Of a stretch of DNA of 38,350 nt, positions 6,790-38,300 are shown piece by piece. A model generated the notes under the pieces. It did no database searches. It saw only the letters and a list, made by a program, of their open reading frames with translations, and was not told the origin of the DNA. Position numbers and translations under genes: made by a program. This DNA comes from a virus: the IMG/VR virus record IMGVR_UViG_3300048597_000264, positions 1-38,350 of that record. The stretch is one strand, 5' to 3'. Numbering within the stretch: the stretch's first letter is position 1; each line of letters begins with the position of its first letter.

Positions 6790-7123
6790 CAGGGTTCCTC
6801 CTGGTGTTCATGGAGCCGGCCACTCGTACTGGCGCGGCTCCTTTTTTCGAAATTGGGTCGGCACCGCAAGTCGCGACGATGGCGCGGCGAGTTCGCAGAC
6901 GTGACTCCCACCGTCTGTGGAAGTAGGGGCGGACGGGCTCGAACCAGTTGTCGCCGAGCAGTCGACGCTCCGCTGGCGGTATCGGTCGGCCAACTCGCTG
7001 GCGTTCGTCGATCGGGGCGTTCATCCGACGTTCGACGAACCAGGTCACGGCGATGAGGAAGAATCCGGGGATCAGGAGTACGACCAGGGCGTCGAAGACT
7101 TCGGCAGGACCTGGAGCCGTCAT
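6773..7123 (-). CDS. Small membrane protein of the early operon
   Basis: A 116-residue protein with one predicted membrane helix near the N-terminus (about residues 10-30: VVLLIPGFFLIAVTWFV) followed by a basic, Arg-rich cytoplasmic part with LLGDNWFEPVRPYFHRRW. Its ATG overlaps the stop of the RHH gene (ATGA), and its end overlaps the next gene by 17 bases. Early membrane proteins of phages often act in superinfection exclusion or host takeover; that role is a guess. Confidence 0.55.
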   Translation of the reverse strand: MTAPGPAEVFDALVVLLIPGFFLIAVTWFVERRMNAPIDERQRVGRPIPPAERRLLGDNWFEPVRPYFHRRWESRLRTRRAIVATCGADPISKKGAAPVRVAGSMNTRRNPDVDYQ

Positions 7124-7284: not shown

Positions 7285-7490
7285 GGCTCGAACAGCTCCC
7301 CCACCGGCACGTCCAACCCGCGAGCAATGAGCATCATCGAGCGGGCCGTGAGTCGCTTCTGACGGCCGTCTTCCAGACGCCTGACCGTCATGCCCGAGAT
7401 TCCGAACCGTTCGCCGAACTGCTCCGGGCTGAGCCCCATCTCTATGCGGGCCAGGCGAACCCTTCCACCGACAACCTTGCTTGATCTCAT
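7281..7490 (-). CDS. Cro-like XRE-family repressor
   Basis: A 69-residue protein with an XRE helix-turn-helix (VRLARIEMGLSPEQFGERFG, then GMTVRRLEDG, about residues 10-45) and nothing else, the size of a Cro protein. It is the first gene of the leftward early operon and diverges from the prophage repressor. No Shine-Dalgarno is present; its ATG lies six bases after the -10 TATAAC, so translation should start on a leaderless mRNA. Confidence 0.85.
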   Translation of the reverse strand: MRSSKVVGGRVRLARIEMGLSPEQFGERFGISGMTVRRLEDGRQKRLTARSMMLIARGLDVPVGELFEP

Positions 7491-8993: not shown

Positions 8994-10628
8994 ATGACGA
9001 CCCAAAACCACCTCTACTACGGCGACAACCTCGAGGTCCTGCGCCGGCACATCCCGGACGAGTCGGTCGACCTGGTCTATCTGGACCCGCCGTTCAACTC
9101 GAACGCGGACTACAACGTGCTGTTCGCCGAAGAGGACGGCTCACGGGCAGCTGCGCAGATCGAAGCCTTCGGCGACACGTGGCGCTGGGACCAGGCGGCT
9201 GCCGCGGCCTTCCAGGAGACTGTCGAGCAGGGCGGTGAGGTCGCGAAGGCGATGGTCGCGTTCCAGACGCTGCTCGGTGACTCGAACATGCTGGCGTACC
9301 TGGCGATGATGGCACCGCGGCTGGTCGAGCTCCGGCGGGTTCTGAAGTCGACGGGGTCGATCTATCTGCACTGCGATCCGACGGCGAGTCACTACTTGAA
9401 GTTGTTGCTGGACTCGGTCTTCGGGGCAGATCGATTCCTCAATGAGGTCACATGGAAGCGGACCTTCTCTCATGGAAATGTGGGTCGAAACTTCGGGCGC
9501 GTCACTGACACGATCCTCGTGTACACCCGATCCGAAAGCTACACGTGGGTTCAGCAATACAGCCCCTACGGTGAGGAATACGTCGAGGGCTACTTCCGTC
9601 ATCACGACGAGAAGGGGCGCTACCGAACCGTGTCTCTGCGAAACCCGTCGAAGCGGCCGAATCTGCACTACCCGTACACAGCTTCGAACGGCTTGACCTA
9701 TCAGCCCCACCCCAACGGGTGGGCAGTCTCCGAGAAGCGGATGAAGGCGTACGACGAGCAGGGACGGCTCCACTTTCCGAAGAAGGAGTCGGGGGCGTTG
9801 CTCGTGAAGCAGTATCTGGACGACAAGCCGGGGGTGAAGCTCCAAAACCTTTGGACCGACATTCCTCCAATCGGTGCTCACGCGGCCGAACGTCTTGGCT
9901 ACCCCACACAGAAACCCGTTGCTCTGCTCGAGCGAATAATCGCAACGAGCAGCGAACCGGATGCGGTGGTGCTCGACCCTTTCGCGGGCTGCGGCACGAC
10001 GATCGCGGCCGCCGAGAAGCTCGGCCGGCGATGGATCGGGATTGACGTTACGTTCCTCGCGGTATCGCTTCTCAAGTCACGGCTGAAGGAGGTCGAAGGG
10101 GTCGAATACGAGATCGTTGGTGAACCCACCTCATCTGACGACGCCGCCCAACTTGCCGCCGACGACCCCTACCAGTTCCAGTGGTGGGCGCTGGGCCTGA
10201 TCGGAGCTCGGCCGGTCGAGGAGAAGAAGGGCGCCGACAAGGGCATTGACGGTCGCCTGTACTTCTTCGACGACGGCGGTTCGAAGGCCAAGCAGCTGAT
10301 CGTGAGCGTGAAGGCAGGGAAGGTCCAGGTCTCCCACGTCAGGGACTTGGTCGGGGTACTTCAGCGGGAAGGGGCAGAGATCGGCGCCCTGATCTCGCTG
10401 AACGAACCGACCGGGCCGATGAAGAAGGAAGCTGCGTCCGCCGGGATGTACAAATCGCCTCTCACCGGCACCACCCACCCCCGGGTCCAGCTCATCACGG
10501 TGGCCGAGCTGCTGGACGGTCGGACACTCGATCTGCCGGCGATCGCACCGCAGCAGAGCATGACGGCAAAGCCGGTGGCCGCGCCTGCGAAGGCTAGGCC
10601 GGATCAGTTGACGCTCGGCGGGGACTGA
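8994..10628 (+). CDS. DNA methyltransferase fused to an Mrr-like nuclease domain
   Basis: A 544-residue protein. The catalytic motif IV DPPF (31-34) comes before the AdoMet-binding motif I DPFAGCGTT (328-336), the beta-type order of N6-adenine or N4-cytosine methyltransferases. Between them is a large insert, probably target recognition. After about residue 390 there is a second domain with GADKGIDGRLYF (D419) and IVSVKAGKV (K440), then HVRDLVGVLQREGAEIGALISL. This follows the Mrr/PD-(D/E)XK pattern of an Asp strand and an x-x-Lys strand. So modification and possible cleavage sit on one chain. The gene lies in the lysogenic cargo. It may protect phage DNA or restrict other phages; nuclease activity is inferred. 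Confidence 0.8.
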   Translation: MTTQNHLYYGDNLEVLRRHIPDESVDLVYLDPPFNSNADYNVLFAEEDGSRAAAQIEAFGDTWRWDQAAAAAFQETVEQGGEVAKAMVAFQTLLGDSNMLAYLAMMAPRLVELRRVLKSTGSIYLHCDPTASHYLKLLLDSVFGADRFLNEVTWKRTFSHGNVGRNFGRVTDTILVYTRSESYTWVQQYSPYGEEYVEGYFRHHDEKGRYRTVSLRNPSKRPNLHYPYTASNGLTYQPHPNGWAVSEKRMKAYDEQGRLHFPKKESGALLVKQYLDDKPGVKLQNLWTDIPPIGAHAAERLGYPTQKPVALLERIIATSSEPDAVVLDPFAGCGTTIAAAEKLGRRWIGIDVTFLAVSLLKSRLKEVEGVEYEIVGEPTSSDDAAQLAADDPYQFQWWALGLIGARPVEEKKGADKGIDGRLYFFDDGGSKAKQLIVSVKAGKVQVSHVRDLVGVLQREGAEIGALISLNEPTGPMKKEAASAGMYKSPLTGTTHPRVQLITVAELLDGRTLDLPAIAPQQSMTAKPVAAPAKARPDQLTLGGD

Positions 10629-23565: not shown

Positions 23566-23589
23566 AGCCTGCTGATTACGAGCCTTGAC
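23566..23589 (-). promoter_or_regulatory. Late promoter element, tape measure
   Basis: GTCAAGG (23589-23583), 11 bases, CAGGCT (23571-23566), six bases, ATG of the tape measure gene. It overlaps the end of the frameshifted chaperone. Confidence 0.7.
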
Positions 23590-24986: not shown

Positions 24987-25010
24987 AACCTACGCAGTCA
25001 GTTCGTTGAC
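24987..25010 (-). promoter_or_regulatory. Late promoter element, major tail protein
   Basis: GTCAACG (25010-25004), 11 bases, TAGGTT (24992-24987), six bases, ATG. A clean copy of the motif, overlapping the end of the small acidic gene. Confidence 0.75.
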
Positions 25011-25268: not shown

Positions 25269-25292
25269 ACGCTACCGATCCACCCTCTTGAC
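25269..25292 (-). promoter_or_regulatory. Late promoter element, small acidic gene
   Basis: GTCAAGA (25292-25286), 11 bases, TAGCGT (25274-25269), seven bases, GTG. Confidence 0.65.
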
Positions 25293-27181: not shown

Positions 27182-27205
27182 ACGGTAGATGGACGGCCCG
27201 TTGAC
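27182..27205 (-). promoter_or_regulatory. Late promoter element, connector genes
   Basis: GTCAACG (27205-27199), 11 bases, TACCGT (27187-27182), nine bases, ATG. Confidence 0.7.
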
Positions 27206-27732: not shown

Positions 27733-28689
27733 TCAGATGGTCAGGTCGTAGGCGTCGACGACGGCCTCGTCCTCGAGGATGATGAAGTCGCGCTTGAGGA
27801 AGTAGACGTGACCTTCCTTGTCGCGGGTCGCCAGCTCCCAGTCAGTCTCCGGCGTGACCTTGTACTTGCGCACGTCCCAGGTGACGACGCGAGCGAAGTT
27901 CTGCGGGTCGGCCAGGATGATCCGGTTGTCCGGGAAGAACGGGATGCCCGGCCGGGCACCGTCGCCCTGACCGTTGAACCACGGAATTCCGTACGGACCG
28001 AAGCCCTTGCCCATGAGCGCGCCGTCTCCGGCCGCAGTCTCGCGCTCCGACAGGTACTCCGTCCAAGCGAAGGCCACGGTCGGCGAGGCCAGCCAGCTGA
28101 GCCCAGGCTGCGCCAGGTACTTGTCGGGCATCGCGTCGATCATGGCCTTGAAGACTTCCTTGCCGAACGCGCCCGAGTTGATGGAATCGGTATCCACCCT
28201 CTGTCCCGAAGGAAGCGCGGCGGCGAGCTTCAGCAGGCCATCGTCGATCTTCACGAACGCGTCGCCCGACGCGGTGTCGCCGTTGATGTCGAGATCGTCG
28301 AGATCGAGACCGAGCTGCTTCTGCATGGCCTTGATGACCTTGGCCTTCGCCGACTCGCCCTCGATGTTCTCGTGGGCCCAGTCGTTGGTGATCTCGAACG
28401 GCAGCCAAACCTTCTTGGCCTCGTACGTGACATCGTCGGTGGCAGCGCCGGCACGGTAGCCGTCGTCGCTGTTCTCGGCCTTGCCGCGAAGCAGGCGAGA
28501 GCCGACTCCGAGCTTCGAGATCTCACCCTCGGGCGCGCGCTTGCGGATGGTCTGGATCTTCGAACCGAAGACCGACATGTCGGTCGCCTCTTCGATGAAG
28601 GCCTTGGACTGCTCGGGCGTCAGGAGTCCTCCGACCGACGTGTCGATCGTGGCCTTCTGGAGTTCGGCCAGTGCGGCGCGGCGGTTCAT
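27733..28689 (-). CDS. Major capsid protein, HK97 fold
   Basis: A 318-residue protein. Pattern of a phage HK97-type capsid: N-terminal TVGG-like LLTPEQSKAF, a long spine helix with the LGLDLDDLDING segment, loops with GIPWFNGQG and PDNRIILADPQN, then DFIILEDEAVVDAYD. It lies directly after the protease/scaffold gene. The ATG overlaps the preceding stop, and no promoter copy lies in between; the internal promoter at 29035-29058 could drive scaffold and capsid together. Confidence 0.9.
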   Translation of the reverse strand: MNRRAALAELQKATIDTSVGGLLTPEQSKAFIEEATDMSVFGSKIQTIRKRAPEGEISKLGVGSRLLRGKAENSDDGYRAGAATDDVTYEAKKVWLPFEITNDWAHENIEGESAKAKVIKAMQKQLGLDLDDLDINGDTASGDAFVKIDDGLLKLAAALPSGQRVDTDSINSGAFGKEVFKAMIDAMPDKYLAQPGLSWLASPTVAFAWTEYLSERETAAGDGALMGKGFGPYGIPWFNGQGDGARPGIPFFPDNRIILADPQNFARVVTWDVRKYKVTPETDWELATRDKEGHVYFLKRDFIILEDEAVVDAYDLTI

Positions 28690-29024
28690 CAGATCATCTC
28701 CATGAGTGCGGGGTTGATGCCCTCGGCCTCGGCGGCTGCCTTGGCCAGCTGCTTGCGCTCGGATGCGCTCGCGGCGGGGTCCGGGTCGTCGCTCTGCGCG
28801 GAGTCACCCGCGGCGAGCTTCTCGATGCTGGCCTCGATGGCGTCGACGCGACTGGCGAGCTCTTCGCCGTCCTCGATTTCCTTGAGGTCTGACACGGCCT
28901 TGGAGATCGACTCCATGGTCGGCTCTGATTCTTCGACGGAGATACCGAGGGACTTCGCGAAGTCCGCCGCGACGCCCTTCTTGATCTCGTCGACCAGTTC
29001 TGTGCGTTCCTCTGGAGTAAGCAT
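28689..29024 (-). CDS. Nested scaffold protein within the protease gene
   Basis: In-frame ATG at 29024 would give the last 111 residues of the protease gene as a separate, acidic helical protein (LTPEERTELVDEIKKGV, SISKAVSDLKEIEDGEEL), the kind of sequence that acts as an internal scaffold, as Nu3 in lambda lies within C. A complete late promoter copy (29035-29058) lies inside the protease coding sequence just upstream, making expression as an own product plausible. This start has not been observed; it is inferred from the promoter motif. Confidence 0.55.
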   Translation of the reverse strand: MLTPEERTELVDEIKKGVAADFAKSLGISVEESEPTMESISKAVSDLKEIEDGEELASRVDAIEASIEKLAAGDSAQSDDPDPAASASERKQLAKAAAEAEGINPALMEMI

Positions 29025-30446
29025 CTCACTATCCGTTTTACTTATTTCCTCCGTTGACTCAACGGAGCCGATCACTTCCTGCTGCTTGGCGATGCCTTCG
29101 CTCGAACCGAGCAGACTCTCCGCCCAGTCGCAGAACTCGTCCACCGATGCGCGAATCACGGCCATCGGGTCTTCCTCGTCGCCGTGAACCGCGCTGAAGA
29201 TCACGCTTCGCAGCAGATCCATGCCTCGCGGCAGCTCGTCAGAGAGCTTGTCGGCTGCCATGCGGTCGCCGAAGGTCGCGGCCTTGGCCAGGTCTTCGGT
29301 CTCCTCGTCGGTACCGAGCAACAGTTCGGAAAGCTTCTTCACGGTCGACTTCCCTTTCTTCTTCGACGCCGCCTGGGAGGCTCGGACGGCCTGCCTTTGG
29401 CGGGGAGTCATTTGAGCCGCCGACTTGAACGCCTGCGGGTGCGAGCTGCGGGTGATGATCGACCCGTCCTCCATGAACATTCGGTTCGGACCGAGAAGCC
29501 CTCCGCGATCCTGAAACGCCTTCATCCTGTTGAGTCGCTGGCCATCGGGCTGGTCGTTCCATGACTTGACCGACAGGCGGGGACTCGCGCCTTCCCATCC
29601 CTTTGGAGTCTTGCCCTTCAGGTTGCCGCCCACGAGTCGACTCGGTGTGCCGTTGATCGTCGGCGCCAACGTCGACCCACCGCCACGCGCCGCCCTGTTC
29701 TTGCCCCCGGCACCGGGACGAGCCCTCGGACCACCCTTCGACGCGAAACGGCCACCACCGGACGCGCCAGCTGGCGCGCGGCGATGCTTGGACTCGTCAT
29801 AGCGCCCCCGTCGCCGCTTCGACAGTTCTTCACTGATCGTTTCGGGATCCATGCCTTCAAGTTCTTCGACGGAGACGTTGAGTGCTTTGGCCACTGTGCC
29901 GAGAAGCTCGTCCTCTTCGCTGGACTTTTCGACCAGGGTCCGCAGCCCCGTGCCTTCGATCGAGACTCCGGTGAACTCGCCGCTTTCGATCGCGTCCCGC
30001 CCATGCTCGTTCGGCTCGATCGCGATGTACCAGGACCCCTTGCGGATCGTCTCACCGCCAACGTCGATGTCGGTAAGCGCGATCGCGTTCTCAACCATGA
30101 CGCCGTACTGGTCCAGCGTCTCGTGCATCTTGTTGATCAGCGCGCCGTTCTTCGCGAACCGGTGACAGGCCTTCCGTATCTCCTCCTCGTCGGCCCACAT
30201 GTCGGGGACCTCACTGCCCCCGACGCCAGCGTCCTCGAGCGCGCCCGGTTCGGCGACAACGCAGTAGACGGCTGACCAGTCCCCAGCCTTCCTGAGCAGT
30301 GACGAATCCGTTGTGAGATCGATCAGGTCGGTCTCGAGGTCTTCTCCCTCGGCGGACTTTCGAAGGAAGAACCGCTTTCGGTTGGCACCCTTGTTCACTA
30401 GGGACACCGCGACCACATCGACATTGCTCAAGGCGTTGTGCTTCAT
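28689..30446 (-). CDS. Prohead protease-scaffold fusion, XkdF-type
   Basis: A 585-residue protein. The N-terminal part (about 45-165) matches the phage serine-protease XkdF domain (YCVVAEPGALEDAGV, ACHRFAKNGALINKMHET, KGSWYIAIEPNEHG, SGEFTGVSIEGTG). A basic, Gly/Arg-rich linker (about 200-260) and helical region follow, then an acidic coiled coil at the C-terminus that is scaffold-like. It cleaves the capsid precursor and guides assembly. ATG lies six bases after a late promoter hexamer; it has no real Shine-Dalgarno. The second half may also be made alone from an internal start. Confidence 0.75.
   Translation of the reverse strand: MKHNALSNVDVVAVSLVNKGANRKRFFLRKSAEGEDLETDLIDLTTDSSLLRKAGDWSAVYCVVAEPGALEDAGVGGSEVPDMWADEEEIRKACHRFAKNGALINKMHETLDQYGVMVENAIALTDIDVGGETIRKGSWYIAIEPNEHGRDAIESGEFTGVSIEGTGLRTLVEKSSEEDELLGTVAKALNVSVEELEGMDPETISEELSKRRRGRYDESKHRRAPAGASGGGRFASKGGPRARPGAGGKNRAARGGGSTLAPTINGTPSRLVGGNLKGKTPKGWEGASPRLSVKSWNDQPDGQRLNRMKAFQDRGGLLGPNRMFMEDGSIITRSSHPQAFKSAAQMTPRQRQAVRASQAASKKKGKSTVKKLSELLLGTDEETEDLAKAATFGDRMAADKLSDELPRGMDLLRSVIFSAVHGDEEDPMAVIRASVDEFCDWAESLLGSSEGIAKQQEVIGSVESTEEISKTDSEMLTPEERTELVDEIKKGVAADFAKSLGISVEESEPTMESISKAVSDLKEIEDGEELASRVDAIEASIEKLAAGDSAQSDDPDPAASASERKQLAKAAAEAEGINPALMEMI
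29035..29058 (-). promoter_or_regulatory. Internal late promoter element, scaffold
   Basis: GTCAACG (29058-29052), 11 bases, TAAAAC (29040-29035), ten bases, ATG. It lies in an A/T-rich patch within a GC-rich gene. The -35 part is the arm of a 15-bp near palindrome (29051-29065). Confidence 0.6.
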
Positions 30447-30452
30447 GCTTCC

Positions 30453-30476
30453 ACGGTACGAATCTGCGGCGTTGAC
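30453..30476 (-). promoter_or_regulatory. Late promoter element, protease gene
   Basis: GTCAACG (30476-30470), 11 bases, TACCGT (30458-30453), six bases, ATG. It starts directly after the 3' end of the phage tRNA. Confidence 0.75.
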
Positions 30477-30480
30477 CCAA

Positions 30481-30553
30481 TGGCGGGACCGGGATTCGAA
30501 CCCGGATCTCCGGCTGATGAGGCCAGTGACCTACCTGGTTGGTCCATCCCGCA
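30481..30553 (-). tRNA. Initiator-type tRNA, anticodon CAT
   Basis: A 73-base tRNA folds cleanly: acceptor 5' TGCGGGA with 3' TCCCGCC (six pairs, with position 1 T opposite 72 C unpaired), D stem GACC/GGTC with loop AACCAGGTA, anticodon stem CTGGC/GCCGG with loop CTCATCA, T arm CCGGG-TTCGAAT-CCCGG, discriminator A. Initiator hallmarks are present: unpaired 1:72, A11:U24, the TGGA start after the acceptor and a D loop like that of bacterial tRNA-fMet; the anticodon stem carries G29:C41 and G30:C40 but C31:G39 rather than G:C. Base 37 is C, which is odd. CCA is not encoded. A late promoter copy lies directly upstream, so its 5' end is close to the expected start of transcription. Confidence 0.85.
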
Positions 30554-30558
30554 GATCG

Positions 30559-30582
30559 AACCTATTCAGACGCGGCGTTGAC
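30559..30582 (-). promoter_or_regulatory. Late promoter element, phage tRNA
   Basis: GTCAACG (30582-30576), 11 bases, TAGGTT (30564-30559), five bases, first base of the tRNA. Confidence 0.75.
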
Positions 30583-30640: not shown

Positions 30641-30832
30641 TTGTCTCTCCTCATCACACTGAAGAATGGAAACGTGATCGACGCCCATTGCTCGGTCGCC
30701 GAAGCGCACGCGAAGATCACCGGCGCCGCAAGATCAGACCCTCGGATGGTGCTGCTGCCTGGGACCGATGGTGGCCCCGATGTGGCCGTCGATCGACACG
30801 AGGTCCTCACGATCGTCGAAGACCGGGACTAG
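30641..30832 (+). CDS. Small plus-strand gene, unknown
   Basis: A 63-residue protein starting with TTG six bases after AAAGGGG. A compact alpha/beta sequence (LLITLKNGNVIDAHCSVAEA, then VAVDRHEVLTIVEDRD). It is opposed to all late genes and overlaps the end of the MuF-like gene by four bases. Like the plus gene at 16217 it may be a moron. No family recognised. Confidence 0.5.
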   Translation: MSLLITLKNGNVIDAHCSVAEAHAKITGAARSDPRMVLLPGTDGGPDVAVDRHEVLTIVEDRD

Positions 30833-31458
30833 GGCAGCATCGACCCGTCTGGCCAGGGGGCCCGCGGCCGGCACCGGCAGTTGCCGCCGTGGGCGATCCC
30901 TGGCCATCCGATCTCCGGTGGCCTGGCGGCAGAAAAGTTCCGCCCGTGAGCAGCCCGGCACAGTGGCGTCGTGCGGTCGTCGAGGACCGCCTTCCAGCCG
31001 AGGGTGTCTCCGAACTGAGCTGCGGCCGTATCGATTTGCTCGGCGGCCTTCTCGCGGCGGCGCTCAGCAGCAAGATGTGCGCCGAAGAGCCGCGTCTCAG
31101 CCGTCGGAGATCCACCGGTGGCCATGCGCCGAGAGGCCGTCACGAGATACATCGCTCGCCGAGCCGCAGCGCCTCGCATCATCGTCGTTTGGGCCGCACC
31201 AGCCGCAGCTGGCGGCGGTGAGAAGCTCAACCCGGCGAAGGTGACGATCGAGACGAGCCGACCTATCACGGCCGCCGGCACCCCGAGAGGCACCAGGATC
31301 GAGATCAGGCCCTGGACAAGAGCCGTCTGAGAGAGGCCCGCAAGGAGAAGAAGCGTGATCGCCACGATCGCTGCCTGCTTCTGAACTTCGTCGGCCTGTT
31401 CGTTTCCTGAATCGTCGCGCTGGCCCTCATCGCTTGCCACCTCGTCCTCACTCGACAC
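30829..31458 (-). CDS. MuF-like minor head protein with hydrophobic N-terminus
   Basis: A 209-residue protein. The C-terminal part has the MuF pattern (DDRTTPLCRAAHGRNF, then PPEIGWPGIAHGGNCRC), as in proteins that help early capsid assembly or DNA delivery and lie beside the portal gene. Unusually the N-terminal third has two strongly hydrophobic stretches (AAIVAITLLLLAGL; SILVPLGVPAAVIGRLVSIV), like membrane helices, and the protein is short for its family. It overlaps the portal gene by 11 bases. Confidence 0.7.
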   Translation of the reverse strand: MSSEDEVASDEGQRDDSGNEQADEVQKQAAIVAITLLLLAGLSQTALVQGLISILVPLGVPAAVIGRLVSIVTFAGLSFSPPPAAAGAAQTTMMRGAAARRAMYLVTASRRMATGGSPTAETRLFGAHLAAERRREKAAEQIDTAAAQFGDTLGWKAVLDDRTTPLCRAAHGRNFSAARPPEIGWPGIAHGGNCRCRPRAPWPDGSMLP

Positions 31459-32962
31459 CTATCGAACCCGCAGCGAGACCGCCCGCCGCTTGCGCTTCAG
31501 CCAACAGAGACGCTGCCGCCTCTGCTCCGCGCTGAATGCCGAGCGCGTCGGGTGTGCTCGCAGAGGACGAATCGATCAGCTCGGCGTTCCAGCCGTACGG
31601 CACCTGCCCAGGTTCGGGCTCCTGACCCTCGTCGGCCTCAGGCATCGGCGGGAATCCCTGCCTCTCCCTGTACTCACCCCGGGTGATCACGTTGTAGCTG
31701 GCAGCGTCGTTTGCGGCCTGCCTTCGAGTCGTGTCGGTCTCGATCTCAATGTCTTTGAAGCTGAACCGCAGGTGTGGGAAGCCGAGGTCCCGAAGTAGCG
31801 TGTCGGAGAGCTGCTCTTCCCATGCTTCCTGCTCCGGGTCGAAGACCTGTTCCTTCGTGATCGCCCTCTCGACATCGGCCGTGTACTTCCCGGCGTCTTC
31901 GATGTCGGCGACGAAAATCGGAGAGATGCGCCAGGCGCCGAGCGTTCGCCGTCGGTTGTCTGCGCGGAAGGCGACGAAGCCCACGTCCCGGTCCGAGACG
32001 CGCGTCATGTCCTCGCGCTGCACCTTCGCGCCCGACGGAATCGGAACGATGGCCACCCGCTTGTTCTTGTTGTCGGACGAGCGCATCGTGTCCGCGATGG
32101 CTTTGACCGTCTTCTGACTGATCTGGACGGTCTGCTTGTTGCCGTTGCTGTCCTCAGGCTCGACGCTGATGAAGAAGGTCGTCGGAGGTACGCCCTGGCC
32201 GTCGAAGAAACCGAGGTTGGTCTCCGCCGCATTCTTGTCGCCCAGGAAGTCCCAGGCCAGCTGGACATCCGGTGGTAACCCGTAGTCCCGACTCTCAGAC
32301 GTGTACAGCTGGAAGGCGATCAGCTCGTTCCGGTTCCAGCGCTTCCCGTTGCCGGATTGGAGCACACCCATCGGCAACCCTTCATCGTCGTACTGGACCT
32401 TGTCCCCGAAGTTGTCGAAGCGGACGCGATCGGCGATCGTCGCGCTGCGGGTGCCGACCACCCATCCGGAGCGATCGCGCAAGCGGCGGACTCGTTTGCC
32501 CGGCGCGTGGAAGAGGCCGTCGATCCGGCCTGTGACCCGGTTGCGCGAAACCTCGAGGTATCCGTTGCCGACTTCCTGCTCATCCCACTTCACTCGCTGA
32601 ATGAGTTTGCTGAAGGTCGGTGACCCGGAGCGAACGTCCCGCCTCGCACAGTCGTTGAGGAGGTCAAGCGCTCTCTGCGGCTCGCCGTCTTCGGCCTCGT
32701 CCTCCATGCCCACCCGCGGCACGATTGATACCCCCAGGCCAATGCTGTTGAGCGTGATCGCCTTGATGCACGAGCGGCGGACCGGTGAGATCTGCGTCAG
32801 CTGCGCGAGGCGATCCAGGTTTTCGGGAGGTTCGATCGCGTCGTTCGGCGTCCAACGGTTGTCGTCATCGGGCTGCTCGGACTTGCCTTCTGGCATCGTC
32901 GCGGCACTGATCCGGATGACCTTTGCGATCTCCTGTTCGACTTGCTTCTCTAGAGAGTCCAC
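31448..32962 (-). CDS. Portal protein
   Basis: A 504-residue phage portal of the SPP1/HK97-like sort: N-terminal stem with IDGLFHAPGKRVRRLRD, GYLEVSRNRVTG, LQSGNGKRWNRNELIAF, a wing domain with TFFISVEPEDSNG, and TRVSDRDVGFVAFRADNRRRTLGAWRISPIF. It is the DNA channel of the head. GTG start eight bases after a late promoter hexamer, with no Shine-Dalgarno. Confidence 0.85.
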   Translation of the reverse strand: MDSLEKQVEQEIAKVIRISAATMPEGKSEQPDDDNRWTPNDAIEPPENLDRLAQLTQISPVRRSCIKAITLNSIGLGVSIVPRVGMEDEAEDGEPQRALDLLNDCARRDVRSGSPTFSKLIQRVKWDEQEVGNGYLEVSRNRVTGRIDGLFHAPGKRVRRLRDRSGWVVGTRSATIADRVRFDNFGDKVQYDDEGLPMGVLQSGNGKRWNRNELIAFQLYTSESRDYGLPPDVQLAWDFLGDKNAAETNLGFFDGQGVPPTTFFISVEPEDSNGNKQTVQISQKTVKAIADTMRSSDNKNKRVAIVPIPSGAKVQREDMTRVSDRDVGFVAFRADNRRRTLGAWRISPIFVADIEDAGKYTADVERAITKEQVFDPEQEAWEEQLSDTLLRDLGFPHLRFSFKDIEIETDTTRRQAANDAASYNVITRGEYRERQGFPPMPEADEGQEPEPGQVPYGWNAELIDSSSASTPDALGIQRGAEAAASLLAEAQAAGGLAAGSIGVE

Positions 32963-32970
32963 TTACAGCC

Positions 32971-32994
32971 ATGCTGCCGAGAAAGCGGGTTGAC
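32971..32994 (-). promoter_or_regulatory. Late promoter element, portal gene
   Basis: GTCAACC (32994-32988), 11 bases, CAGCAT (32976-32971), eight bases, GTG. Confidence 0.6.
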
Positions 32995-32996
32995 CC

Positions 32997-34370
32997 TCAG
33001 ACGACCAGCGTCTTCACGGTAGGCCGTTCGGAGTAGTCCATCAGCTCCGAAAGGGCCCACACCGCGGCGTCCATGCGATCCGGTGAGGCTATCCCCGGTT
33101 CGCCGGTCCAGTTGACCATCTGATCTTCGAGTTCGGGCAGGTTTCCGATGTGGTGGACCACGGGATCCTTCGTGTTGGCTCCCTGCTCGTAGAGCATGGC
33201 GCTCGGCTCGGCTCGAGTCCGCTTGCCGTCCGAGGCTGTGACCTCCTTGTACGGCACCCGAATGCCCGACTCCTTCATCGCCTGCTCGAGTAGATCGGTC
33301 AGGAACTTGCCGCCGTGATTCTTCTCGACGACGATGGTCGCGTTCACCGAGTGCGCCAGGGCGACCGCCTTCGTCAACCAGTCGAGCGGCGTGGTCCTCA
33401 TCCCCTCGGATTGCGCGACATAGATGTGCCGGTCTTCGCCGATGCCGGCCAGACACCACGCCTGCTCGTCGGACTGGTCGAGGCCGTCGGATGGATCGAG
33501 CGCCAGCACCCGGCGCCGGTAGACCTCAGGGCCCTGGAGTACCCGCCCCAGATCGATCCACTCCCGCCGCCACAATGCGCCCTCGGCCTCGTCGAGCATG
33601 ATCCCTTCGAGCTCCTGCTGTCCGAGCGAAGTGTTCGCCGTTCTCAGCACTCGGCGCTTGAACGGCTCCGACAGATACGCCCAGTTGTCCCGGGTCAGCA
33701 GCCGCCGAGTGGTGACGTGCTCATCGGACATCAGCCGCTTGATCAGAGCTCGCGCCGGCCGGTCGCGCTTGGGTGTGCCGGTTGCGATGATCCGGGATTG
33801 GCCCTTGCGAAGGGCGTAGGCGATCGCTTCGTCGAACGCCATCTCCCACAGCTTCCACAGTCCGAGCTCATCGCACCAGACGCCACGCAGGTTCTCACCC
33901 TGGATTCGCGCCGCGCCATTGTCGGCCCCGTCGATCAGGATCTTCTGTCCGTTCAGCAGCACCATCTCTCCAATCGAGCGGTTCCACGTCTTGACCGTCG
34001 GTGAGATCCCCTTCTCGACTTCCGAGCGAGTCGTGTGAAAGGCGGCAAGCAGGCCGCTTTCGCCTTCAACGCATTTGTTACGAGCGTCGGCGAACGTCGG
34101 AGCTACGGCGGCCCAGACGCCGGGTCCCTCGGTCTCGAGTACCGGATCAGCGTCGATCTCTTCTTTCAGGATGTGGGCACCGGCCCACGTTTTTCCCGAA
34201 CCGCGGCCGCCCATGAGCAGCAGCGTCTCCCACTCGGCCGGTGGCAGCTGGTCCTCGCGCGCCGTGTCTCGCCAAGTGCCGAGCTTGGCTTCGCGGAGCT
34301 TCAAGAGGAGACGCTTCTTCTCCTCGACCTCCCAGCCCTTCCACGCGTCAAGCGGGGGTGCGGTCGCCAC
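32997..34370 (-). CDS. terL: Terminase large subunit
   Basis: A 457-residue DNA-packaging motor. Walker A GRGSGKT (55-61), Walker B GVWCDE (163-168), coupling motif ATGTP (196-200) and a RuvC-like nuclease domain with D292 in LALDPSDG, E349 in VVEKNHGG and a late acidic residue in DRMDAAVW are visible. It cuts concatemers and drives DNA into the portal. GTG start, overlapping the small subunit gene by 23 bases. Confidence 0.93.
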   Translation of the reverse strand: MATAPPLDAWKGWEVEEKKRLLLKLREAKLGTWRDTAREDQLPPAEWETLLLMGGRGSGKTWAGAHILKEEIDADPVLETEGPGVWAAVAPTFADARNKCVEGESGLLAAFHTTRSEVEKGISPTVKTWNRSIGEMVLLNGQKILIDGADNGAARIQGENLRGVWCDELGLWKLWEMAFDEAIAYALRKGQSRIIATGTPKRDRPARALIKRLMSDEHVTTRRLLTRDNWAYLSEPFKRRVLRTANTSLGQQELEGIMLDEAEGALWRREWIDLGRVLQGPEVYRRRVLALDPSDGLDQSDEQAWCLAGIGEDRHIYVAQSEGMRTTPLDWLTKAVALAHSVNATIVVEKNHGGKFLTDLLEQAMKESGIRVPYKEVTASDGKRTRAEPSAMLYEQGANTKDPVVHHIGNLPELEDQMVNWTGEPGIASPDRMDAAVWALSELMDYSERPTVKTLVV

Positions 34371-34866: not shown

Positions 34867-34890
34867 AAGCTACGAAAGCGAAGCGTTGAC
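34867..34890 (-). promoter_or_regulatory. Late promoter element, terminase
   Basis: GTCAACG (34890-34884), 11 bases, TAGCTT (34872-34867), six bases, ATG. The stop codon of the gene upstream overlaps the -35 part. Confidence 0.75.
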
Positions 34891-38223: not shown

Positions 38224-38235
38224 GAATCGGGGCGA
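38224..38235. other. Putative attR core
   Basis: GAATCGGGGCGA, the same 12 bp as at 116-127. Bases 38228-38235 are the last eight bases of tRNA-Pro, so integration leaves the tRNA intact. Confidence 0.55.
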
Positions 38236-38300
38236 CTGGATTTGAACCAGCGACCTTTCGACCCCCAGTCGAATGCGCTACCAAACTGCGCCACGCCCCG
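38228..38300 (-). tRNA. tRNA-Pro (GGG), host gene
   Basis: A 73-base tRNA with a perfect 7-bp acceptor stem (CGGGGCG/CGCCCCG), T arm CTGG-TTCAAAT-CCAG with standard loop and anticodon loop CTGGGGG, anticodon GGG for proline. CCA is not encoded. Its 3' end faces the prophage and is the probable attB site. Confidence 0.92.

Follow-up and report, generated by a model that had tools for sequence, protein, structure and literature searches.

It has long been asked why phages carry tRNA genes, and for an initiator tRNA codon usage offers no explanation. The question is raised here by an initiator-type tRNA gene inside the head genes of a phage genome, in an IMG/VR record that was analysed over its whole length of 38,350 bp (GC 64%), referred to below as the window. 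The reading preferred here, held tentatively and at somewhat less than an even chance, is that the initiator tRNA belongs to the late regulon of the phage and feeds leaderless late messages. If this is true, the virus alters the mode of initiation and not codon supply alone. As one genome ties an initiator tRNA to leaderless-type late promoters, an effect of fMet-tRNA known from biochemistry becomes testable in the infected cell.

The tRNA gene within the late block

A tyrosine integrase gene (166-1248) lies at the left end of the window, which also carries recombination genes recognised by family searches. The head and tail block is transcribed leftwards, which makes the minus strand the late strand, and family searches give the order terminase-portal-MuF-protease-capsid with the tRNA inside it. 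The position within the head genes, which had been claimed in an initial annotation made from the letters alone, is borne out by the two neighbours of the tRNA gene, of which one (31458-30829) is MuF-like and the other (30446-28689) encodes a head protease of the XkdF/S78 type. The features of this region are:

28689..30446, minus strand, XkdF/S78-type head maturation protease (family match)
30481..30553, minus strand, initiator-type tRNA (CAU) with U1xC72, A11:U24, C31:G39 and C37 and no encoded CCA (ARAGORN, Rfam, position parse, profiles)
30641..30832, plus strand, 63-aa ORF divergent from the tRNA (comparison with the close relative G001)
30829..31458, minus strand, MuF-like head protein (weak Pfam match, below the cut-off)
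31448..32962, minus strand, portal protein (family match)
32997..34370, minus strand, large terminase (family match)

Relatives of the terminase, capsid and integrase are scattered and point to no host. A DUF2510 protein is encoded in the window and, together with the GC content of 64%, is taken here as a hint at Actinomycetota, a link that we presume. By Pfam, a plus-strand protein (8994-10628) combines an N6/N4 DNA methylase domain with a nuclease region like that of Mrr. An intact tRNA-Pro(GGG) (38227-38300, minus strand) is found at the other end from the integrase, and repeats resembling GGTCGCTGG are seen by eye at both ends of the window; these features suggest that the phage integrates at tRNA-Pro.

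Identity of the tRNA

ARAGORN calls a tRNA-Met(CAT) at 30553..30481 on the minus strand, and the Rfam model RF00005 matches it over its full length (52.0 bits, E 1.6e-8), with 1:72 as the sole non-standard pair. The free-energy fold is unexceptional (z -1.24); that the gene is real follows from the covariance-model match and from its conservation in G001. Parsed by position, the tRNA has U1xC72, G2:C71, C3:G70, A11:U24 and A73, an anticodon arm with G29:C41, G30:C40, C31:G39 and C37, and a variable loop of 4 nt, and its CCA end is not encoded. Every feature named in the initial annotation (CAT anticodon, unpaired 1:72, A11:U24, C31:G39 and C37) is present.

The accessible text of PMC7949028 gives the 1x72 mismatch, G2:C71, C3:G70 and A11:U24 as determinants of formylation, and the 1x72 mismatch with three G:C pairs as the features for P-site binding. 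All four formylation determinants occur in the phage tRNA, as do two of the three canonical G:C pairs of the anticodon stem, the third being inverted to C31:G39 and still G-C. Within the anticodon loop and its 3' stem strand, positions 37 and 39 are where the phage tRNA deviates from the canonical initiator.

Assignment to the initiator class was further examined with two DNA profiles, one built from 117 initiator-type sequences, with the phage tRNA and its counterpart in G001 excluded, and the other from 16 CAU elongators. The phage tRNA scores 43.4 bits by the initiator profile versus 14.5 by the elongator profile, and among held-out controls all 20 initiators sampled and 15 of the 16 elongators were sorted correctly. 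Its score is lower than that of every held-out initiator tested (51.9-75.8 bits). Elongator Met and Ile2 are ruled out by A11:U24, by the UxC at 1:72 and by the two profile scores. Neither Y11:R24 nor a paired 1:72, the marks of an elongator, is present in the phage tRNA, and C11:G24 occurs in all 16 elongator-type cores, which had been sorted by Y11:R24. Judged by these features, the tRNA is a diverged initiator, and the initiator type that had first been read from the letters is retained with high confidence. Its quality at the P site may be reduced, given the inverted third G:C pair, the odd C37 and the low profile score.

Initiator-type tRNAs in viruses and chromosomes

Scans of viral_contigs with initiator patterns returned 18 stretches without A37 and at least 120 with A37. 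The patterns fix U24, G29, G30, C40 and C41, which makes these positions uninformative in the set; host flanks may account for some of the stretches, and a few matches do not represent a tRNA. Of the 138 stretches listed, 137 contain a tRNA by ARAGORN, and in 88 of the 138 the tRNA is alone in its stretch. A phage initiator tRNA had been thought unusual as such, which is not supported, as at least 138 viral stretches match the patterns and papers list phage tRNA-fMet; what is unusual is C37 and the promoter shared with leaderless-type late genes, the broader significance of which the initial annotation had missed. Phage initiator tRNAs are already known as a kind, of which the one studied here is a variant.

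The matches listed yield 119 distinct initiator-type sequences, nearly all viral with a few chromosomal ones. The 31:39 pair reads G:C in 83 of them and C:G in 12, and at position 37 there are 103 sequences with A, 8 with U, 4 with C and 4 with G. The four C37 sequences of this set are those of the studied phage, G001 and two chromosomal genes, so that among the viral stretches listed C37 is confined to the studied phage and one relative. When genome_contigs (84,980 species) was scanned for C37 initiators, they turned up in two species, a Desulfuromusa genome and Rheinheimera lutimaris; R. lutimaris has four tandem chromosomal initiator genes (L144:1327-1889, minus strand), two of them with C37. 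The chromosomal comparison was made in the phylum of this Rheinheimera genome (G004), which was picked for its C37 and whose phylum may not be that of the host: in 40 genomes, 23 of which matched, all 35 places have G31:C39. By the pattern used, a C31:G39 initiator was found in 0 of 299 genomes of the Rheinheimera phylum, which is another than that of the hinted host. The initiator-type tRNAs of the phage loci L005-L142 vary at 31:39 and 37, while the 35 chromosomal places are all G31:C39.

Upstream of initiator 5' ends, TANNNT is about 1.8 times commoner at 3-8 nt than further up (26 in six positions versus 2.4 per position; 124 loci, among the matches listed). This suggests that many initiator-type tRNA genes have a promoter of their own.

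Conservation and the ORF-tRNA cassette

Searches with the protease and the portal found one close relative, G001 (33,227 bp; protease 90% identical), and the protease also found L004. The same tRNA lies at the same place in G001, with 68 of 73 nucleotides identical (93%), while the surrounding 6.9 kb are 83.2% identical. The five differences fall at positions 26, 45, 46, 49 (C:G to U:G) and 72 (UxC to UxU); despite them all stems stay pairable, the 1x72 mismatch is kept, and C37 and G39 are retained. G001 was also the only match to a pattern with the unusual D stem and any nucleotides at 31:39 and 37. Within the stretches compared, the tRNA is absent from the corresponding place in L152 (capsid 56% identical) and from L004 (protease 55%), and among 80 capsid-relative loci that of G001 is the only one with any tRNA in the stretch compared. 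No named phage matched the tRNA region in a blastn search.

The 63-aa ORF stands opposite to the late genes, between MuF and the tRNA, and overlaps the MuF stop by a few bases. Compared with G001 it has 28 synonymous and 11 non-synonymous codon differences, and 32 of the 47 base changes fall at third positions; because of these codon differences and the third-position bias it is very likely a real gene. Searches of viral_contigs and of protein families returned no relatives, G001 having the only counterpart. In L152, GGGTCAACGGCGC with the GTCAAC box comes immediately after the MuF stop. L152 looks like the site without the cassette, and in the other two phages the ORF and tRNA would have entered between MuF and the box. 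An HNH-endonuclease-like gene, recognised by eye, lies on the other strand in the MuF-protease spacer of L152 (L152:4179-5168, minus strand), which suggests that this spacer is an insertion hotspot.

A late promoter-like family

The initial annotation had given the tRNA its own promoter copy. An exact GTCAACGCCGC occurs at 30582, before the tRNA, and at 30476, before the protease, on the minus strand, and in both cases TANNNT follows at equal distance; the two copies turn out to be part of a family of eight late sites. The flanking 11-bp repeats had also been considered as an insertion duplication, but both copies fit the promoter-like family, and a promoter copy is the simpler reading. Scanning with the pattern GTCAA[CG]-12-TANNNT, which was refined after hits had been seen, gives 6 sites in the window, where 300 Markov simulations average 0.07 and reach 2 at most. 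Each of the six belongs to the late strand and immediately precedes a gene start or the tRNA, and when the two sites that gave the pattern are removed, four sites are left, all at starts. Two CANNNT variants, before the portal and the tape measure genes, were added by eye. The eight sites, all on the minus strand, are:

34867..34890, minus strand, GTCAAC-12-TAGCTT, 6 nt to ATG 34860 of the TerS-like gene (motif scan)
32971..32994, minus strand, variant GTCAAC-12-CAGCAT, 8 nt to GTG 32962 of the portal gene (by eye; kept in G001 and L152)
30559..30582, minus strand, GTCAAC-12-TAGGTT, ending 5 nt before nucleotide 1 of the tRNA (conserved in G001 at 7118)
30453..30476, minus strand, GTCAAC-12-TACCGT, 6 nt to ATG 30446 of the protease gene (motif scan)
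27182..27205, minus strand, GTCAAC-12-TACCGT, 9 nt to ATG 27172 of the head-tail adaptor gene (motif scan)
25269..25292, minus strand, GTCAAG-12-TAGCGT, 7 nt to GTG 25261 (motif scan)
24987..25010, minus strand, GTCAAC-12-TAGGTT, 6 nt to ATG 24980 (motif scan)
23566..23589, minus strand, variant GTCAAG-12-CAGGCT, 6 nt to ATG 23559 of the tape measure gene (by eye; kept in G001)

The family precedes the TerS-like, portal, tRNA, protease, tail-side and tape-measure genes, the label TerS-like being given to the gene at ATG 34860 by its position before the large terminase, without a family match. At all eight sites, 29-33 nt separate the start of the box from the feature, and the end of the hexamer lies 5-9 nt upstream of it. 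As the tRNA has no start codon, this shared distance points to the start of transcription, and the family would be a phage late promoter that acts on transcription. No standard sigma-70 promoter was found at the tRNA. Sites of the strict form number 5 in the window, 5 in G001, 2 in G005 (L152), 1 in G008 and 0 in three others. On the early side, a TTGACA-17-TATAAC at 7490 (minus strand) ends 6 nt before the ATG of an ORF; this is a promoter of ordinary spacing with a leaderless-type start, unlike the late box.

Predicted leaderless late messages and the proposed mechanism

With the hexamer only 5-9 nt upstream of the start, a leader with a Shine-Dalgarno sequence would not fit, and the late mRNAs are therefore predicted to be leaderless or nearly so. 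Pairing with the anti-Shine-Dalgarno sequence is weaker at the seven motif-led starts, averaging -2.8 kcal/mol versus -5.6 kcal/mol at 31 other minus-strand starts (P 0.023, with uncurated start codons). The accessible text of PMC9031893 reports that raised fMet-tRNA gives a strong boost to leaderless translation while canonical translation changes little, and also that AUG selection on a leaderless mRNA does not rest on the binding of initiator tRNA alone. The first of these statements agrees well with a phage that combines leaderless-type late messages and an initiator tRNA under one kind of promoter.

In the mechanism proposed here, a temperate tailed phage would have a functional initiator tRNA gene among the units of its late regulon. 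The gene would be driven by one of eight late promoter copies, and its product, once charged with Met, would undergo formylation by the host and be admitted to the ribosomal P site. The closeness of the promoters to the start codons would at the same time give leaderless or near-leaderless late mRNAs, on which the extra fMet-tRNA made late would favour 70S-type initiation over that on host mRNAs. What the sequence shows is the tRNA with its identity elements, the promoter-like family and their conservation in one relative, while promoter function, leaderless transcripts, formylation and the benefit to late translation are deduced. Such a boost of leaderless translation is a tentative idea, with the balance tipping slightly against it. 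Counting against the proposal as a whole, L152 has the promoter family and no tRNA in the stretch compared; as it has the promoters only, the regulon can exist without the tRNA. The statement on AUG selection in PMC9031893, the possibly reduced quality at the P site and the refinement of the motif after hits had been seen weigh against it too. A general link between phage initiators and leaderless genes was also considered and is unsupported: at 137 other initiator-bearing viral loci, among the matches listed, the leaderless signal is unclear over background (ratio 1.12, bootstrap 0.89-1.36), versus a ratio of 0.64 in 78 capsid relatives, a comparison confounded by host group.

A more specific version, which we consider rather unlikely, is a two-part circuit in which a box near -28 with a -10 hexamer starts leaderless mRNAs at the AUG and the same promoter also drives a variant initiator tRNA, so that the phage would make both halves of the 70S leaderless initiation event. 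Transcription of the tRNA would then begin roughly at the first nucleotides of the mature molecule, 5 nt downstream of the hexamer and thus at the point of an mRNA start, and the tRNA, perhaps tuned by C31:G39 and C37, would be made without a 5' leader for RNase P.

Alternative explanations

The altered anticodon arm is addressed directly by the main rival explanation, in which a host VapC-like nuclease cuts the initiator tRNA and the phage supplies a replacement whose altered loop (C37, C31:G39) stays uncut. According to the accessible text of PMC4105405, an enteric VapC cuts tRNA-fMet between A38 and C39, and the C37 and G39 that bracket A38 at this cut are both kept in G001; evasion of VapC through anticodon-loop changes has been proposed for phage tRNAs (PMC10264068, accessible text). 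The uniform G31:C39 of the chromosomal places (35 of 35 in 40 genomes, with C31:G39 in 0 of 299) fits as well, in a phylum other than that of the hinted host. The candidate nuclease is nevertheless hypothetical, C37 is present in chromosomal initiators too, and C31:G39 recurs in phage initiators with a normal A37. A late promoter would also be late for defence. Nuclease escape is thus unlikely, if still to be taken seriously; it is compatible with the leaderless proposal, and both can be true. The same arm is left unexplained, as is the promoter common to leaderless-type genes, if the phage simply tops up an initiator pool that limits all late translation, without any leaderless preference. 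Such plain dosage, which draws on the commonness of initiator-type tRNAs in viral contigs and on their frequent occurrence as the sole tRNA (88 of 138 stretches listed), is judged quite unlikely.

A captured, drifting tRNA without a selected role would account for its presence in just two of the relatives examined and, among the 80 capsid-relative loci, in G001 only. Drift is however at variance with an identity of 93% versus 83% around the gene, with differences that are compatible with the structure, and with a promoter-like site of its own kept in both phages, which makes a mere passenger improbable. Replacement of a host tRNA disrupted by integration has a precedent in the tRNA-dependent lysogeny of actinobacteriophages (PMC10865867, accessible text), and a tyrosine integrase is encoded here. 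The sole att-like tRNA, however, is the intact tRNA-Pro(GGG) opposite the integrase, which is of a different isotype; the GGTCGCTGG repeats at both ends, seen by eye, resemble integrase arm sites, and the initiator tRNA stands under a late-type promoter. This explanation is very improbable.

Comparison with known systems

The phage tRNA resembles chromosomal tRNA-fMet in its CAU anticodon, 1x72 mismatch, G2:C71, C3:G70, A11:U24, G29:C41 and G30:C40. It differs from it in having C31:G39 instead of G31:C39 and C37 instead of A37, a D stem GACC/GGUC, a 4-nt variable loop and an unencoded CCA. T4 middle promoters consist of a MotA box near -30 plus a -10 element; the late family likewise has its box nearer than -35 and a hexamer resembling a -10 element, although the sequence is unrelated and an activator is hypothetical here. 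In Nanoarchaeum, leaderless tRNA genes are transcribed from the mature 5' end, as would be the case for the phage tRNA, again with unrelated sequence.

Initiator tRNAs in phage genomes have been described in phiLM21-like Sinorhizobium prophages, mostly as their only tRNA (PMC12429752), and in Erwinia phage pEa_SNUABM_47 (PMC7760394); in the accessible text of these two papers, neither late promoters nor leaderless genes nor changes to the anticodon arm were found to be mentioned. Anticodon-arm changes are shared with the phage tRNAs proposed to evade VapC, but the mycobacteriophage cases have large tRNA clusters, unlike the studied phage, and S. flexneri phages generally avoid the targeted tRNA-fMet (PMC10264068, accessible text). 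A literature search, with most subscription journals outside it, found no link between a phage initiator tRNA and leaderless late genes. Compared with these systems, the novelty of the locus is its wiring, an initiator tRNA placed under the promoter common to leaderless-type late genes.
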